Shown: positions 45,718 to 62,246 of the stretch, piece by piece
Position numbering within the stretch: the stretch's first letter is position 1
How the letters are laid out: each line of letters begins with the position of its first letter
Virus record (IMG/VR): IMGVR_UViG_3300035670_000026
Coordinates: 62,001 to 126,000 of that record
DNA length: 64,000 nt
Source of the DNA: a virus
Reading direction: 5' to 3' (one strand)
Notes under the pieces: generated by a model
The model's input: the letters and a program-made list of their open reading frames with translations, nothing else
Databases searched by the model: none
Told to the model about the DNA's origin: nothing
Translations under genes and position numbers: made by a program

Positions 45718-46593
45718 ATGGCAAAACATGTAGTAGTTAGTCTTAGCGGAGGGATGGACTCCTCAACATTGTTACTTCGTTGCTTAAAAGAGTACGATAC
45801 AGTAACAGCACTTTCATTTGATTATGGACAAAAACATAGAGTTGAACTTGAACGTGCTCAATCGTTAGTAGATTATTTGAATTCTAATTGTGAAGAAAAT
45901 AATTGTTATGGGGGTTGTAAAGTAAACTACCGAGTTATTAAGCTCGATGGTTTAGTTGATTTACTTAATTCAGCACTCGTAACAGGTGGAGATGAAGTAC
46001 CTGAAGGACATTATGCTGAAGAAAATATGAAAGCAACAGTTGTTCCTAATCGTAACAAAATCTTTGCTTCAATTACTCAAGCAGTTGCACTTTCAATTGC
46101 TGATAAAACAGGTGAACCATGTGACATTGCAATGGGTATTCACGCGGGTGATCATGCAATTTATCCTGATTGTCGCCAAGAATTCCGTGATGCAGATGAT
46201 GCAGCATTTAGAATTGGTAACTGGGGTTCTGAGAAAGTAGGTTACTTTACACCATATCTTGAAGGTGATAAATTTACCATTTTACAAGATGGAGAAGTAT
46301 TGTGTAGTGAATTAGGACTTGATTTTGATGAAGTATATTCTCGTACAAACACTTCATATAAACCAATTTATATTCCTTATCCTGAAAGTAAATCAAGAGT
46401 AGAAGAAACACTTAGAACTAAATTTGGTGAATGGTATTCTGATTACAAATCAGCATCGTCAGTTGAACGTGTAGAAGCGTTTATTAAATTAGGTCGCCCT
46501 GATCCAGTAGAATATGCTGACGAGACCGGTCCTGTAACTTGGGAACATGTAGTAACAGAAGTATTTAAAGTACTAGAAAGTTATGAAAAATAA
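45718..46593 (+). CDS. queC: 7-cyano-7-deazaguanine synthase QueC (zinc site atypical)
   Basis: 291 residues. SLSGGMDSSTLLLRC is the PP-loop ATP site, with ALSFDYGQKHRVELE and VVPNRNKIFASI as in QueC, which converts CDG to preQ0. AMGIHAGDHAIYPDCR matches the conserved GxxxxDxxxYPDCR core. The usual C-terminal CxxxxxxCxxCxxC zinc ribbon before the ERAxAF region is absent: the corresponding stretch reads TNTSYKPIYIP then SSVERVEAF without Cys. Three cysteines occur in an insert near residue 59-67 instead. Part of the preQ0 set; overlaps the next gene by 11 bases. Confidence 0.85.
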   Translation: MAKHVVVSLSGGMDSSTLLLRCLKEYDTVTALSFDYGQKHRVELERAQSLVDYLNSNCEENNCYGGCKVNYRVIKLDGLVDLLNSALVTGGDEVPEGHYAEENMKATVVPNRNKIFASITQAVALSIADKTGEPCDIAMGIHAGDHAIYPDCRQEFRDADDAAFRIGNWGSEKVGYFTPYLEGDKFTILQDGEVLCSELGLDFDEVYSRTNTSYKPIYIPYPESKSRVEETLRTKFGEWYSDYKSASSVERVEAFIKLGRPDPVEYADETGPVTWEHVVTEVFKVLESYEK

Positions 46594-47146
46594 TCCTTTT
46601 AAACGTCTTCAAGAATTAGCAGGAATTATTACCGAAGAAAAACAAACATACGATTATGGTTGTGCTATGTTGTATTTTAATCTTCCAGAAATGAATAAAA
46701 TCCATGATGCTATTAATCCTAATGATGTTTATATTCAAGAGGGTGATCGCTCATTTGGATTTGAGACTGAACCACATTGTACTTTGCTTTATGGTTTACA
46801 CGAGGGAGTAACAACAGAAGATATTGAAAAAGTATTAGATAAGTATACTTATTATACTTGTAAAGCACATAACGCCTCTTTGTTTGAGAATCCTGAGTTT
46901 GATGTTTTAAAATTTGATGTTAAGGGGGATAATTTAAATGAGACAAATGCTGATTTACAACAATATCCATTTACTTCTAATTTCCCTGATTATCACCCAC
47001 ACATGACTATTGCTTATTTGAAATCAGGTAGTGGAAAAAGATATGTTCAAATGCTTAAAGGTGTGGAATTTGATTTGGCACCTCAGTATGCTGTGTATTC
47101 AAAACCAAATGGTGATAAAGATAAAATCAATATTAAAATAGATTAG
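46583..47146 (+). CDS. 2H phosphoesterase superfamily protein
   Basis: 187 residues. Two HxT motifs typical of the 2H fold: EPHCTLLYG (about residue 72) and HPHMTIAYL (about 147). Family members act on 2',5'- or cyclic phosphodiesters (2'-5' RNA ligase-like, CPDases); phage relatives include Acb1, which cleaves cyclic oligonucleotide signals. N-terminal NPFKRLQELAGI is an added short helix. Substrate cannot be read from the sequence. It lies between queC and queD. Confidence 0.7.
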   Translation: MKNNPFKRLQELAGIITEEKQTYDYGCAMLYFNLPEMNKIHDAINPNDVYIQEGDRSFGFETEPHCTLLYGLHEGVTTEDIEKVLDKYTYYTCKAHNASLFENPEFDVLKFDVKGDNLNETNADLQQYPFTSNFPDYHPHMTIAYLKSGSGKRYVQMLKGVEFDLAPQYAVYSKPNGDKDKINIKID

Positions 47147-47149
47147 ACT

Positions 47150-47434
47150 ATGAGTGATGGAATTACAGAAGCTCGTAGAGGTACTTATTGGAAAAACGAC
47201 AAATACGACAAAAGTATAATTAATTGGGAATTACATCAACAATTAAATAGTAAAAAATCAAAAATAGATAAAGATTTTAAACATATGCCTAACCAAAAAT
47301 GGCATAAAATTATAAGCTTTATCAAATCAGGAGTGCGTATCTTAGGATACGCTCTTCTCCCATTTAATTTGGTAGTTGCAACAATTGTACTTATATTTAG
47401 CGAAGTTATTGGAATTATAGAAGAATTAGTATGA
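47150..47434 (+). CDS. Small protein with C-terminal membrane segment
   Basis: 94 residues. A basic, polar N-terminal half is followed by hydrophobic ILGYALLPFNLVVATIVLIF at about 64-83, probably one membrane helix. The last bases overlap the next start. No family recognised. Confidence 0.65.
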   Translation: MSDGITEARRGTYWKNDKYDKSIINWELHQQLNSKKSKIDKDFKHMPNQKWHKIISFIKSGVRILGYALLPFNLVVATIVLIFSEVIGIIEELV

Positions 47435-47637
47435 TAAAAAGACACTACCGAAAATCACTTCCCCAACCTGAAATGTACATTATAGTAAATCAGGATGGAA
47501 AAGTATTTATTGGTTTAAAAGGTGGTTACCCTGAATATTCTTCAGATTGGTCTCAAGCCAAACCACTATTTATAGAGAACACAAAACATCTTTTAAGAGA
47601 AAAAGGAACAGAATTAATTAAAGAATCAGAATTATGA
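47431..47637 (+). CDS. Small hypothetical protein
   Basis: 68 residues, mixed, basic N-terminus, YIIVNQDGKVFIGLKGG resembling a short beta hairpin region. Overlaps both neighbours by 4 bases. No function assigned. Confidence 0.6.
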   Translation: MIKRHYRKSLPQPEMYIIVNQDGKVFIGLKGGYPEYSSDWSQAKPLFIENTKHLLREKGTELIKESEL

Positions 47638-47882
47638 AACAACTATGGTATTTTTCGGCTCCCTGGTGTGGACCGTGTAAACAATTTGGTCCTACTATGG
47701 ACCGTGTATCCAACCAAGGTATCCCCGTTAATAAAGTAAATGTAGATTATGAACCAGATGCTACTACTAAATTTGGAATTAAAAGTGTCCCTACAGTTAT
47801 TTTAGTAGAAAACGGACAAGAAATAAAACGCTTTACAGGTGTAAAATCAGAACAAGACGTAATTAATTTTTATAATGGGTAG
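47634..47882 (+). CDS. Thioredoxin/glutaredoxin-like protein
   Basis: 82 residues. WCGPC at 11-15 is the thioredoxin active site, and GIKSVPTVIL carries the cis-Pro. It is shorter than bacterial thioredoxin, as in T4 NrdC. The natural partner is the phage ribonucleotide reductase at 38678-41371, whose alpha subunit has the CxxC tail. Confidence 0.9.
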   Translation: MKQLWYFSAPWCGPCKQFGPTMDRVSNQGIPVNKVNVDYEPDATTKFGIKSVPTVILVENGQEIKRFTGVKSEQDVINFYNG

Positions 47883-48339
47883 TTTTAGATCAACAAAAAT
47901 ATTTGATGGTTATTCAACAGTATTTCGTCAATGGAAAGCTACAGATACCCATTGTCGTTTTTTACATGGTTACGGAGTAAGTTTAAAAGTATGGTTTGAA
48001 GGCGATCTTGATCACCGCAATTGGGTTTGGGACTTTGGGGGTATGAAACGTACTAAAGGTACCATTGATGGTATGAATCCTAAAGAATGGATGGATTATA
48101 TGCTTGATCATACTACAATTATAGCAGAAGACGATCCATATCTTTCTTATTTTCGTAACATGGATTCCGAAGGTATAATTCAATTACGAGTAATACCCAA
48201 TACAGGAGCAGAATGTTTTGCTCAATATTTTTATTACAAACTAAATACATTTATTCAAAAAGAAACAAATAAGCGTGTAAAAGTAGTTCAAGTTGAATTC
48301 CGTGAACACGAGAAAAATACAGCATTTTATAAAGGTTAA
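47875..48339 (+). CDS. queD: QueD-like 6-carboxy-tetrahydropterin synthase (divergent)
   Basis: 154 residues, the usual size. THCRFLHGYGVSLKVWFEGD corresponds to the CxxxHGHxYxxxV zinc/active region but with HGY in place of HGH; NWVWDFGGMK matches the DFxxLK region; PNTGAECFAQYFYYKL matches the PTxENLAxY motif. It turns the FolE product into 6-carboxytetrahydropterin, the second step of preQ0 synthesis. The zinc ligand set is therefore not the standard three His. Overlaps thioredoxin by 8 bases. Confidence 0.75.
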   Translation: MGSFRSTKIFDGYSTVFRQWKATDTHCRFLHGYGVSLKVWFEGDLDHRNWVWDFGGMKRTKGTIDGMNPKEWMDYMLDHTTIIAEDDPYLSYFRNMDSEGIIQLRVIPNTGAECFAQYFYYKLNTFIQKETNKRVKVVQVEFREHEKNTAFYKG

Positions 48340-48340
48340 T

Positions 48341-49123
48341 ATGGCATTAAAAAGAATTGAAGATTATAGTAAAAAGCTTCCAATTGTAGAGCTTTATACT
48401 TGCGTACAATCAGAAGGCAGTAGAGCAGGTCGTCCTACTGTTGCTGTACGCACAACAGGATGTACTCACCGTTGTTATTTCGGTGAAGGAGGATGGTGTG
48501 ACTCTTGGTACACTAGTATCCACCCAGAAAAAGGTAAATATTCATTTCAGGATATTGTAGACATTTATGATGCTCATCCTGAAATTACTGAAATGATGCT
48601 TACTGGAGGTTCTCCTACTATGCATCCAGCACTAGTAAATGAATTGACTCATTTTGCTCACGAAAGAGGAATTATTATTACTATTGAAACTGAAGGATCT
48701 CATTTCCTAGAAACTGATCATCCTATTGGTCTTATTAGTTTTAGTCCTAAATTTAACAATTCAGTTCCTGTTTTAGGAGTACTTACACCTCAAGGTTCAG
48801 TTACTGATCAAAAGATGATTGACAAACACAATAGTTTACGTTTAAATAAAGTAGCTATTAAACAATCAATGGAATATCATGCTGATTACCATATGAAAGT
48901 TGTAGTTAATCCTGTTGAAGACCCTGAAACTTGGAATGAAATCAAAACATTCTTGGATGAATTGGAAGTACCTAAAAATAAAATTTGGATTATGCCTCCT
49001 GGAGATAACCGACAAGAATTGATTCGAGTTTATCCTATGGTAATTCAATGGTGTACAGACAACTATTATAATTTTACAGGTCGTGAACACATCATTGCCT
49101 TTGATACAAAGCGTGAAGTTTAA
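48341..49123 (+). CDS. queE: 7-carboxy-7-deazaguanine synthase QueE (radical SAM)
   Basis: 260 residues from ATG 48341 (an earlier in-frame start at 48293 lies within queD). VQSEGSRAGRPTVAVRTTGC resembles the QueE start; the cluster cysteines are in GCTHRCYFGEGGWCDSW, spacing C-x3-C-x7-C rather than the usual C-x3-C-x2-C. MMLTGGSPTMHP corresponds to the TGGEP SAM-binding motif. It makes CDG from 6-carboxytetrahydropterin for QueC. Confidence 0.85.
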   Translation: MALKRIEDYSKKLPIVELYTCVQSEGSRAGRPTVAVRTTGCTHRCYFGEGGWCDSWYTSIHPEKGKYSFQDIVDIYDAHPEITEMMLTGGSPTMHPALVNELTHFAHERGIIITIETEGSHFLETDHPIGLISFSPKFNNSVPVLGVLTPQGSVTDQKMIDKHNSLRLNKVAIKQSMEYHADYHMKVVVNPVEDPETWNEIKTFLDELEVPKNKIWIMPPGDNRQELIRVYPMVIQWCTDNYYNFTGREHIIAFDTKREV

Positions 49124-49134
49124 TATTTATTTTT

Positions 49135-49647
49135 ATGGGTAGTAAACAAGTATTATTTACTGAATTAGAATTACAAAACAAAGTAGGCGAACTTGCTTAT
49201 AACATTAAAAAACAAAAACATGATTTTCCTCCCGTGTTTATATGCGTTTTAAACGGCGCATTTATGTTTTTTACGGATTTAGTGAAGCGAATGGATGAAT
49301 GCGAAATAGACTTTATACGCGCGAAATCATACGAGGGAATTACACAGAGTACAGTCAAAATTACTAAATCTATTGAAATTGATATTTCAAGAAAAGATGT
49401 TTATCTTGTAGATGATATTTACGATACAGGAGAAACAATGAAAGAACTTACTAACCACCTTAAATTATATAATCCTCGATCAATCACTCCAGTTACTTTA
49501 TTTAAACGTTGGAGTGCAAAACATCCCGATTTAATTTATGGATTTGAATTGTATGATGAGGCCTGGCTTGTAGGTTATGGTTTAGACAATGAAAAAGGTC
49601 TCCAACGAAATCTTAAACATATCCTTGGAATCCCAAGAGAAGATTAG
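49135..49647 (+). CDS. hpt: Hypoxanthine/guanine phosphoribosyltransferase-like
   Basis: 170 residues. VYLVDDIYDTGETMK is the PRPP-binding signature of type I phosphoribosyltransferases; FICVLNGAFMFFTDLVKR and FIRAKSYEG fit hypoxanthine-guanine PRTs. It salvages guanine or hypoxanthine to nucleotides. Between queE and folE, it could recycle the guanine released when a DpdA-type enzyme swaps bases; that link is inference. Confidence 0.85.
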   Translation: MGSKQVLFTELELQNKVGELAYNIKKQKHDFPPVFICVLNGAFMFFTDLVKRMDECEIDFIRAKSYEGITQSTVKITKSIEIDISRKDVYLVDDIYDTGETMKELTNHLKLYNPRSITPVTLFKRWSAKHPDLIYGFELYDEAWLVGYGLDNEKGLQRNLKHILGIPRED

Positions 49648-49653
49648 TATATT
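49625..49653 (+). promoter_or_regulatory. Host-sigma-like promoter TTGG-N19-TATATT
   Basis: TTGG 49625 lies within the last codons of the HPRT gene; TATATT 49648; ATG 49671 follows 17 bases later. Confidence 0.6.
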
Positions 49654-49670
49654 ATATAAAAATAAAAGTC

Positions 49671-50099
49671 ATGAATGTATCTCAAGCATTAAAGCAAAAA
49701 AACAAATTAACTGTTGAATTAAAAAAACAGTACCAAATTGCACAAAAATTTAATTCCCAAGAAGAAGGGAATATTAGACGTTATTCAGTGCAGGACGCAT
49801 TGGATAAAGCTGCCGAGTTAACTATGGAGTTAACTGACCTAAAAACCAAGATCCACTTGGCAAACGCTCCTGTATACGATAAGATCTTTCGTATGGCTGA
49901 GTTAAAAGGCCGTATCAAGGAATTAAGAAAAATTCCAACGGAAGAAGGAAAAGCTGAATCACGATACAGTTCAGTAGTATCTGTAAAAGAAGTGGAAATT
50001 AATATTACCCAACTTGATGAAATGGTCCAAACACTAGAAGCAAGAATTGAAGAAATTCAAGCTGAGTTGGACGTTCATAACGCAACAACCCAAATTTAA
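49671..50099 (+). CDS. Coiled-coil protein
   Basis: 142 residues, almost entirely helical with heptads (SQALKQKNKLTVELKKQYQI, TQLDEMVQTLEARIEEIQAE). The start and overall build recall the DIP1984-like family of small bacterial coiled-coil proteins, but this is only a resemblance. It has its own promoter and is followed by the structured RNA candidate. Confidence 0.65.
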   Translation: MNVSQALKQKNKLTVELKKQYQIAQKFNSQEEGNIRRYSVQDALDKAAELTMELTDLKTKIHLANAPVYDKIFRMAELKGRIKELRKIPTEEGKAESRYSSVVSVKEVEINITQLDEMVQTLEARIEEIQAELDVHNATTQI

Positions 50100-50102
50100 T
50101 TT

Positions 50103-50295
50103 GAGTAGGGAGTGATGATGAATTAATTTTTGATGTCTTACAATTCTACTATGAGCCACATAGCGGATAAGTGATGATGATAAGGTTTATCCAACATCAA
50201 AATTTAAAAACTCAAAACATCAATCCTCGCGCACTTCAATAAATTTAAACCTCTTTGAACAGGACTAAAATTATTGATTCTGACTCGCTCCCCTC
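50103..50295 (+). ncRNA. Candidate structured non-coding RNA, about 190 nt, class unknown
   Basis: The 255-base gap between the coiled-coil gene and folE has no ORF but pairs end to end. P1a: 50103-50105 with 50293-50295 and 50108-50115 with 50285-50292, with a UA bulge and one G-U. A 4x4 internal loop UGAU/UGAC can form tandem G-A pairs. P1b: 50120-50127 with 50273-50280 (8 bp, one G-U). P2: 50128-50136 with 50194-50202 (9 bp perfect); an alternative partner is 50217-50223. Hairpins inside P2: 50149-50153/50159-50163 and 50165-50170/50187-50192. A further arm: 50224-50227/50261-50264 and 50235-50239/50255-50259. AGTGATGATGA occurs twice (50111 and 50170). The folE promoter starts after it, so it is not a simple folE leader. 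Confidence 0.6.
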
Positions 50296-50303
50296 ATTTT
50301 AAT

Positions 50304-50332
50304 TTGGATATTTTAAATATCCTTTATATATT
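50304..50332 (+). promoter_or_regulatory. Host-sigma-like promoter TTGG-N19-TATATT with spacer palindrome
   Basis: TTGG 50304, TATATT 50327. The spacer has GGATATT-TTA-AATATCC (50306-50322), closely like the spacer of the promoter at 15335. ATG of folE at 50355. Confidence 0.65.
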
Positions 50333-50354
50333 AAAAACATAAAATAAATAAGTT

Positions 50355-51059
50355 ATGGAAAATATCGAAAATAAACGTCGTAAAAAACACGAAGACATTG
50401 AGTGTGTTCCTGTAGGTTATGCTAATGGAGTAGCAGCAGGTTTTCCTTTTACTGATAAAGAAAAGGAATCAATGATTGAAGAAGCAGCCGAAGCATTTGG
50501 CCAGTTTCTTGATGCACTAAAATGTGATTGGCGAAAGGATCCTAATTCAATGGAAACTCCTCGTCGCGTAGCCAAAGCATATGTAAATGATTTGTGGAAA
50601 GGTCGTTATAATAATTTTACTGAAATTACTTCATTTCCTTCAGATGGTTATGATGGAATTATTATTGAACGTAATATTCAACTTACGTCAATGTGTTCTC
50701 ACCATCACCAAACAATTCGTGGTGTAGTACATATTGGTTATGTAGCTGGAAACGAAGGTCAAGTAATTGGTTTGTCTAAATTAAATCGTATTGTAGAACA
50801 TTTTGGTCGTAGAGGTGCTATTCAAGAACAACTTACATCCGCTATTCACCAAGCAGTAGATAAAGTGTGTGAAGCTAATCGTGGTGTAATTGTAACTGTA
50901 GTTGCTACTCATAATTGTGTAAGTTGCAGAGGTATTAATCACCAAGGTGCTGCAATGGTAACTACTAAAGCATCAGGTGTGTTTATGGATAATAATAATC
51001 AAGCACGTAAAGAATTTTTTGATTCACTTAAAATTAATAATGGTCATGTCTCAATCTAA
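50355..51059 (+). CDS. folE: GTP cyclohydrolase I FolE
   Basis: 234 residues. TSMCSHHHQTIRGVVHIGY has the Cys and His zinc ligands, VIGLSKLNRIVEHFGRR is the conserved helix region, and THNCVSCRGINHQGAAMVTT carries the third zinc Cys. It converts GTP to dihydroneopterin triphosphate, the first step of both folate and preQ0 synthesis; with QueD, QueE and QueC here, preQ0 is the likely purpose. The start overlaps no gene, and a host-type promoter precedes it. Confidence 0.93.
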   Translation: MENIENKRRKKHEDIECVPVGYANGVAAGFPFTDKEKESMIEEAAEAFGQFLDALKCDWRKDPNSMETPRRVAKAYVNDLWKGRYNNFTEITSFPSDGYDGIIIERNIQLTSMCSHHHQTIRGVVHIGYVAGNEGQVIGLSKLNRIVEHFGRRGAIQEQLTSAIHQAVDKVCEANRGVIVTVVATHNCVSCRGINHQGAAMVTTKASGVFMDNNNQARKEFFDSLKINNGHVSI

Positions 51060-61292: not shown

Positions 61293-62246
61293 TTGGCTAA
61301 AAAGAAAAAAGTCCCTCAAATTGTAAAGCAGATTAAGAATCAACCTTTACGAGAAATGAATTATGCCTTTGAAAAGGCGATTTCATATAGCCAATTTTCT
61401 GTATTTCAATCGTGTCCACGTAAATGGGCTTTACAATATAGAGATGGTTTTTACACGTCTGAATCATCAATTCACATGACTTTCGGTACGGCATTACACG
61501 AAACTTTACAACATTATATAACAACTATATACGAAGTTAGTGGTGCTGCTGCTGATAGAATTGATTTAAAAGAATATTTTGAAGAACGATTTAGAGAAAC
61601 TTATCTAAAAGATTACAAATCTAATAAAAATACCCACTTTAGCAATTCAGTCGAAATGAATGAATTTTTTGAAGATGGATTAGCTATTTTAGATTTTGTA
61701 AAGAAAAAACGAAGCGGTTATTTTGGTAAAAGAGGTTGGCACTTAGTAGGATGTGAATTACCACTTGTAGTTACTCCAAATCCTAAATATTCAAATATTT
61801 TATATAAAGGTTATTTAGATGTTGTTTTATACAATGAAACTCTAAATAAAATAAAAATTCTAGATATTAAAACCTCAACTAGAGGATGGACTGATAAAGA
61901 AAAAAAAGATGAAATAAAACAATTTCAACTTGTTCTTTATAAAAAATTCTTTAGCCAACAATTTAACATTCCCATTGAAGATATTGATGTAGAGTTCTTT
62001 ATTGTACGAAGAAAAATTTGGGAAAACTCAGAATTTAATATTGGTAGGATACAAGAATTTAAACCAGCTTCAGGTAAAGTAAAATTAAACAAAGCATATA
62101 ATGCTATTAATGAGTTTATAGGAGAAGCATTTAATACAGACGGTTCTCACAATTCTAGAAACCATCAACCACAACCCTCAGCTTATAATTGTAGATTTTG
62201 TCCTTTTAAAGATAATAAAGAACTTTGTGATAAAGAAGTGTTTTAG
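61293..62246 (+). CDS. PD-(D/E)XK nuclease, Cas4/RecB-like, with iron-sulphur cysteines
   Basis: 317 residues. The start is TTG 61293: the context AAAGTT-TTG replaces the AAAGTT-ATG seen in neighbours, and the first ATG is 21 codons inside. ISYSQFSVFQSCPRKW gives the first Cys; GTALHETL carries the active-site His; GYLDVVLY and KILDIKTST are the D ... (D/E)xK motif; NCRFCPFKDNKELC gives three more Cys. This is the Cas4/AddB-type nuclease with a 4Fe-4S site. No CRISPR array or other cas gene is seen. A recombination or DNA-end processing role is likely. Confidence 0.85.
   Translation: MAKKKKVPQIVKQIKNQPLREMNYAFEKAISYSQFSVFQSCPRKWALQYRDGFYTSESSIHMTFGTALHETLQHYITTIYEVSGAAADRIDLKEYFEERFRETYLKDYKSNKNTHFSNSVEMNEFFEDGLAILDFVKKKRSGYFGKRGWHLVGCELPLVVTPNPKYSNILYKGYLDVVLYNETLNKIKILDIKTSTRGWTDKEKKDEIKQFQLVLYKKFFSQQFNIPIEDIDVEFFIVRRKIWENSEFNIGRIQEFKPASGKVKLNKAYNAINEFIGEAFNTDGSHNSRNHQPQPSAYNCRFCPFKDNKELCDKEVF

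Follow-up and report, generated by a model that had tools for sequence, protein, structure and literature searches.

Here, we present an analysis of a non-coding gap of ~190 nucleotides (nt) between a gene for a coiled-coil protein and folE in a stretch of 64,000 nt of viral DNA (the window; positions 62,001 to 126,000 of the IMG/VR record IMGVR_UViG_3300035670_000026, which holds 149,817 bases). We found that this gap encodes an RNA whose structure is conserved by covariation and that is exclusively linked to a single protein family, i.e. the one represented by the coiled-coil gene (49671-50099; 142 amino acids). The RNA (50100-50301, as delimited by a covariance model and covariation) begins at the stop codon of this gene and, like all features of the window described below, lies on the plus strand. 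RNA and preceding gene together make up one portable module, which is carried by large phages that are mostly uncultured. Based on comparisons of sequences, we suggest, with a probability of roughly one half, that the RNA derives from the 3' end of the transcript for the coiled-coil protein and works together with this protein as a ribonucleoprotein. A preliminary description of the window had proposed an unclassified structured RNA of ~190 nt at this position; it had overlooked the tie to the upstream gene as well as two conserved elements in the interior of the RNA, an array of UCAA repeats and a GAU core.

Conservation of the RNA and its linkage to one protein family

An alignment of 14 close relatives, generated using MAFFT and without structural information (A4), was used to build the covariance model R1, which recovered distant relatives at the equivalent position with E values from 1e-17 to 1e-3. 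Of the relatives found with R1, 43 were fitted to the model to generate a second alignment (A6), from which model R2 was built; R2 matches positions 50100-50303 of the window with 185.8 bits. In A6, all 29 modelled pairs, which make up the closing stem and one hairpin, have changes on both sides. The covariation score of A6 is 0.503 compared with 0.188 ± 0.011 after shuffling and at most 0.127 when the partners are slid. Since the rows of A6 had been fitted to the model, the cleaner evidence comes from A4 and from the held-out loci (see below); for A4, the score is 0.270 compared with 0.179 after shuffling and at most 0.096 for slid partners. Moreover, the structured model R1 gave 55 on-target matches at E ≤ 1 in 73 sources, while the sequence-only model R3 from the same alignment gave 30 in 63 sources, and the closing stem recurs when separate groups are folded from their own alignments. 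Altogether, covariation demonstrates that the RNA structure is conserved.

The minimum free energy of the gap (-41.1 kcal/mol) is lower than that of 200 of 200 dinucleotide shuffles (-30.4 ± 3.7 kcal/mol; z -2.88). The minus strand of the gap folds nearly equally well (z -2.83), and folding energy alone, therefore, cannot settle the strand; rather, the assignment to the plus strand is based on the covariance models and the linkage to the gene. Because folding energy is also weak across the RNA family (mean z -1.8), it is covariation and linkage that carry the argument. The window RNA has no match at the gathering score to any family in Rfam 15, with sub-threshold matches only, and in 20 related loci only transfer RNA (tRNA) genes and one GOLLD RNA matched Rfam, both outside the RNA element. 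The family is absent from Rfam, and the element is unclassified, as had been proposed.

The linkage to the coiled-coil gene holds in both directions. R2 gave 87 matches at E values up to 1 in 92 sources, all of them on the same strand and just 3' of the protein gene, and none elsewhere in the 596 kb searched. One locus (L197) duplicates another (L126), leaving 91 distinct loci, some of which are near-identical copies of each other; in 86 of these, the RNA is located directly 3' of the protein gene. Among the five R2-negative loci, the contig of L188 stops at the stop codon, L165 is similar to the weakly scoring L163, and L121, L122, and L198 have diverged most, with closing stems and repeats visible by eye; L198/L228 scored E 0.23 at the expected position. 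All 12 viral loci that were found later and held out from the model, a set that includes two pairs of near copies, match at the expected position with E values from 1e-16 to 0.017. Similarly, a scan with only the RNA core matched 22 contigs, all of which carry the protein gene, and a search for the pattern at the 5' end gave five more contigs or copies (L069, L080, L092, L098, and L100), each preceded by the coiled-coil gene. Under stricter filters, the RNA was found in one of 148 Bacteroidota genomes, and this sole match lies beside the protein gene. In the other direction, searches with the coiled-coil protein identified loci in unrelated contexts, and every one that was read has a similar gap of ~190 bases after the stop codon. 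Thus, RNA and protein gene co-occur in changing contexts. In three loci (L176, L182, and L183), a small gene of ~61 codons, cysteine-bearing in L176, is inserted between the stop codon of the coiled-coil gene and the RNA, arguing that the RNA is more than a continuation of the coiled-coil reading frame. L122 has a short lysine-rich frame at a similar place.

Architecture of the RNA

As suggested previously, the RNA is closed by a long stem, and its segments are present in the window and covary. In P0, UGAG (50102-50105) pairs with CUCA (50293-50296), and both sides of the pairs vary in the family. In P1a, GGGAGUGA (50108-50115) pairs with UCGCUCCC (50285-50292), with double changes in eight of eight pairs and 89% of cells paired. 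P1b is formed by GAAUUAAU (50120-50127) and AUUGAUUC (50273-50280), with double changes in 12 of 12 modelled pairs, the modelled helix reaching four pairs further inward than the eight perfect pairs of the window. P1a and P1b are separated by a 4x4 internal loop, in which UGAU (50116-50119) is opposite UGAC (50281-50284); the alignments and covariation place the 3' side of this loop and the 3' strands of P1b, P1a, and P0 at 50273-50296. The loop is a candidate for tandem G.A pairs, as read from the sequence and the alignments, and UGAU opposite UGAY or AGAU is seen in several groups (e.g. UGAU/UGAU in L157 and UGAU/UUGAU in L141), in agreement with the tandem-GA-type loop of the preliminary description. 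Further inward, P1c pairs GUC (50135-50137) with GAC (50263-50265); it was recognized by eye from the alignments and has the form GUCC/GGAC or GAUUC/GGAUC in relatives. The likeness of the loop to C/D boxes or a kink-turn did not withstand comparison: where the window has CUGA, close relatives have UUGA or AGAU, while L053 and L133 have no such motif, and L133 retains neither box. Models for small nucleolar RNAs matched at E values of only 0.25-10, far under their gathering scores, and we rejected a C/D box RNA.

Of the inner hairpins described previously, the hairpin CUAUG-AGCCA-CAUAG (H1; 50149-50163) is present and conserved, with double changes in five of five pairs and 79% of cells paired. 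The window can also form the 9-bp helix P2 (50128-50136 paired to 50194-50202); however, this helix is not conserved in the family, with 71% of cells paired and a covariation score of 0.056 compared with 0.050 after shuffling. P2 had also been suggested to switch between two states by means of an alternative partner at 50217-50223. Because this partner is another unit of the UCAA array, the apparent switch probably reflects nothing more than the repetition of this motif.

H1 is followed by the GAU core (GAU-AAGU-GAU-GAU-GAU; 50166-50181). The pattern GAU(N3-6)GAU(N3)GAU occurs in 26 of 57 non-redundant members, compared with 0.0 in shuffles. The 11-nt sequence AGTGATGATGA does occur twice, as noted previously, and its copies (50111-50121 and 50170-50180) lie within two different conserved elements, i.e. 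the internal loop and the core. The UCAA array (50197-50253) has units of ~7-9 nt and is mostly unpaired in the consensus. We counted 183 UCAA motifs where 75 are expected, and they are spaced in register, with 17, 28, and 17 pairs at lags of 7, 8, and 9 nt compared with ~1.2 expected (z 25 for lag 8) and echoes at lags of 14-16, which are also elevated.

A small protein encoded within the RNA was rejected because the longest frames differ in frame, place, and sequence among relatives. An inserted element flanked by TTTAATTTG repeats was dropped because the repeat is absent in other groups and a promoter motif accounts for it. As for a host counterpart of the repeats, the TTCAAAATTCAAAATTYAAAA pattern was found at eight places in five of 118 Bacteroidota genomes, and the four contexts that could be read resemble short inserts in coding or unrelated sequence rather than copies of the RNA. 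Bacteroidota genomes also contain short TTCAAAAT repeats (L217, L219, L220, and L223), which are inserted within coding or other sequence and are apparently unrelated to the RNA.

The protein partner and the proposed ribonucleoprotein

The NCBIfam model for DIP1984 matched 32 of 42 members of the protein family (best E value 2.6e-9), and the Pfam model DUF6847 matched 15. The window protein itself scores 22.1 bits (E 1.4e-4) with the NCBIfam model, below its cut-off of 70 bits. Its AlphaFold prediction has a predicted local distance difference test (pLDDT) score of 92.8, and in Foldseek the predicted structure matched 3kdq_C with template modelling (TM) scores of 0.84 and 0.78 and a root mean square deviation of 2.9, which places both in the same fold. 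Based on the predicted structure, we conclude that the window protein is a remote relative of DIP1984, and because of the weak sequence similarity we name it the phage branch of this fold. Accordingly, the phage branch resembles DIP1984/DUF6847 (PDB 3KDQ) in its fold and, in most members, in remote sequence similarity, while it differs in its pairing with an RNA and in its own invariant K, N, R, and Y residues: K8, N11, K12, N28, R36, Y38, K58, and H62 vary little or not at all within the phage branch, and two cellular DIP1984 proteins lack them. No RNA was detected at these two cellular loci, which are a small sample. PHROGs had no match for the module, one query for plasmid relatives of the protein gave none, and a search for PF20935, which was found neither in four genomes nor in 14 controls, was uninformative.

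How might the two partners work? There is no synonymous constraint at the end of the coiled-coil reading frame and, thus, no sign of a separate promoter for the RNA; in the simplest view, the RNA is the 3' part of the message. We propose that the RNA is transcribed as this 3' part from the stop codon onwards, uses the P0-P1 stem and H1 to fold, and presents the GAU core and the UCAA array with its spacing of ~8 nt. The array would be bound by the DIP1984-like protein, which would probably form an oligomer; the RNA would probably be cut free from the coding part; and both would form a stable ribonucleoprotein that acts during infection. A role in host take-over or counter-defence would best suit such a roaming accessory cassette. 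A ribonucleoprotein is favoured by the strict two-way linkage, the lack of matches in a folE control set (see below), covariation, the register of the repeats, and the GAU core. It is also favoured by the changing neighbours, the small gene that separates the partners in three loci, the proximity to tRNA genes and in one case GOLLD, the residues typical of the phage branch, and the terminator-like hairpins after the RNA. The more specific version, in which an oligomeric DIP1984-fold protein assembles on the ~8-nt-spaced UCAA array of an RNA from its own transcript to form a dedicated phage ribonucleoprotein, is tentative, and we give it somewhat less than an even chance. Several observations weigh against a ribonucleoprotein: the comparison with cellular DIP1984 comprises only two loci, the phage-branch proteins are not basic overall (mean isoelectric point ~7), the repeats lack strict regularity (with a median run of 3 when counted strictly), and an element acting in cis in the 3' untranslated region of the protein's own mRNA would give the identical linkage.

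Such a cis-acting element would stabilize or regulate its own message, e.g. by feedback binding of the protein, and have no separate life. It would explain that the RNA begins right at the stop codon in almost every locus, on the same strand and always co-oriented, that constraint hinting at a promoter of its own is lacking, and that intrinsic-terminator-like hairpins follow the RNA in 18 of 68 loci compared with 35 of 381 control stretches (~3-fold). However, it fits less well with the small gene between the two partners in three loci, with a ~200-nt architecture of core and repeat array that is large for a stability element, and with the placement among tRNA arrays in many phages; on balance, we regard it as unlikely but credible. 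We consider it less probable still that the RNA is an independent small RNA acting in trans (as a sponge, antisense RNA, or decoy), sharing the transcript and not bound by the protein. Its conserved unpaired repeats could act by titrating an RNA-binding protein of the host, and the adjoining gene could be processed apart; however, the strict pairing with one protein family while all other neighbours change argues against this idea. A portable two-gene cassette with a repeat-bearing RNA is also reminiscent of a toxin-antitoxin or addiction-like pair, in which the RNA would restrain the protein. In type III toxin-antitoxin systems, RNA repeats are located upstream of the gene for an endoribonuclease toxin. 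The likeness ends with a protein-RNA pair with repeats: here, the RNA is downstream, the repeat units are much shorter, and the protein belongs to a different class, i.e. a helical coiled-coil bundle without a recognizable endoribonuclease domain, making this explanation very improbable.

The RNA precedes folE in the clade of the window, raising the question of whether it is a leader or riboswitch of this gene. Among 67 folE relatives in viral contigs, the element is absent from those with the usual upstream gap of 0-130 bases, while L053, which has the element, has a gap of 257 bases. Moreover, 61 folE loci without the coiled-coil gene have no RNA match below E 0.8, and the only locus of this control set that matches R2 is L053, which has the coiled-coil gene. 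Elsewhere, the RNA precedes unrelated or convergent genes: neighbouring genes vary among phages, and the next recurrent gene is convergent in nine loci (L161, L164, L166, L169, L171, L172, L182, L183, and L185), arguing that the RNA is not a leader. Because the RNA does not stay with folE and has no match to an Rfam riboswitch, we rejected this explanation, to which we assign next to no probability. The preliminary view, by contrast, remains the best one: the element is better seen as a free RNA or a 3' RNA than as a leader of folE.

Genomic setting, known systems, and significance

In the window, folE (50355-51059; Pfam PF01227, 4.3e-43) is an incidental neighbour of the module within this phage clade. 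It is preceded by a promoter-like stretch (TTTG...TATATT; 50298-50332), read from the sequence, of which one copy is located upstream of folE in relatives without the module. TTTGG followed by TATATT after ~18-20 bases recurs before folE in many loci and is likely a Bacteroidota-type phage promoter. The window virus encodes a gene set for 7-deazaguanine synthesis, with genes for QueC-like, QueD-like, and QueE-like proteins, FolE, and a phosphoribosyltransferase at 45718-51059; in Flavobacterium phage immuto, a comparable set adjoins a gene for a DNA guanine transglycosylase. The virus has a T4-type family B polymerase, with 34% identity to the closest deposited relative. Because the homologues nearest to its FolE are from Flavobacterium and Cellulophaga phages, its host is likely a member of the Bacteroidota, and the relatives of the module likewise suggest Bacteroidota hosts.

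At least 228 relatives of the protein are encoded by viral contigs in IMG/VR, while among 50,697 deposited phage records the protein is found only in LR756500 and LR756511, which are two uncultured huge phages. Among 396 Bacteroidota genomes, it occurs in two. A diverged copy of the pair in one Bacteroidota genome (L228; 1296-1495, minus strand) lies near a tyrosine-recombinase-like frame, suggesting an integrated element. tRNA genes are located within 3 kb of the module, in the flanks fetched, in 17 of 53 loci. In L116, a GOLLD RNA (363-780; RF02032, 295.9 bits) lies in a tRNA array shared with the protein-RNA pair, with 24 tRNA genes in 6.4 kb. Such surroundings of tRNA arrays and GOLLD are settings in which stable RNAs are made. 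ARAGORN also identified phage genes for transfer-messenger RNA 3' of the pair (L137, 4404-4749; L139, 4408-4782); the tag GVNNYALAA of L137 looks canonical, while that of L139 is longer and less certain.

Several known systems share features with the module. GOLLD and other large phage RNAs in tRNA arrays are also structured, and at times lie in the same array (L116); however, the RNA described here has ~200 nt rather than >400, is tied to one protein gene, and has no sequence or model match to them, with RF02032 giving no match to the window RNA. Y RNAs, the partners of Ro proteins, are small RNAs with a long closing stem and an internal loop; in some bacteria and phages, their gene lies next to that of a dedicated protein. 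The RNA has all three features, i.e. the stem, the loop, and the adjoining protein gene, while its protein has a fold unrelated to Ro and it has no match in Rfam; to our knowledge, the repeat array is not known from Y RNAs. Targets of TRAP carry G/UAG motifs spaced at ~5 nt. Here, too, short motifs are regularly spaced in unpaired RNA, which would fit with binding by an oligomeric protein, while the motif is UCAA at 7-9 nt and the protein fold is different. Although RNA-protein pairs as such are already known, no description of this pair was found in the open-access literature, and the pair is new as a described entity.

Altogether, what began as one odd gap is now a defined RNA family to which a protein partner can be assigned. 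For the DIP1984 fold, a structure has been solved (3KDQ), which its depositors call functionally unknown, and the linked RNA makes the function of this fold directly testable. If the more specific version outlined above, with an oligomeric protein on the UCAA array, is correct, the module would provide the first function for the DIP1984 fold, and large phages would possess a protein-RNA machine of a new kind.
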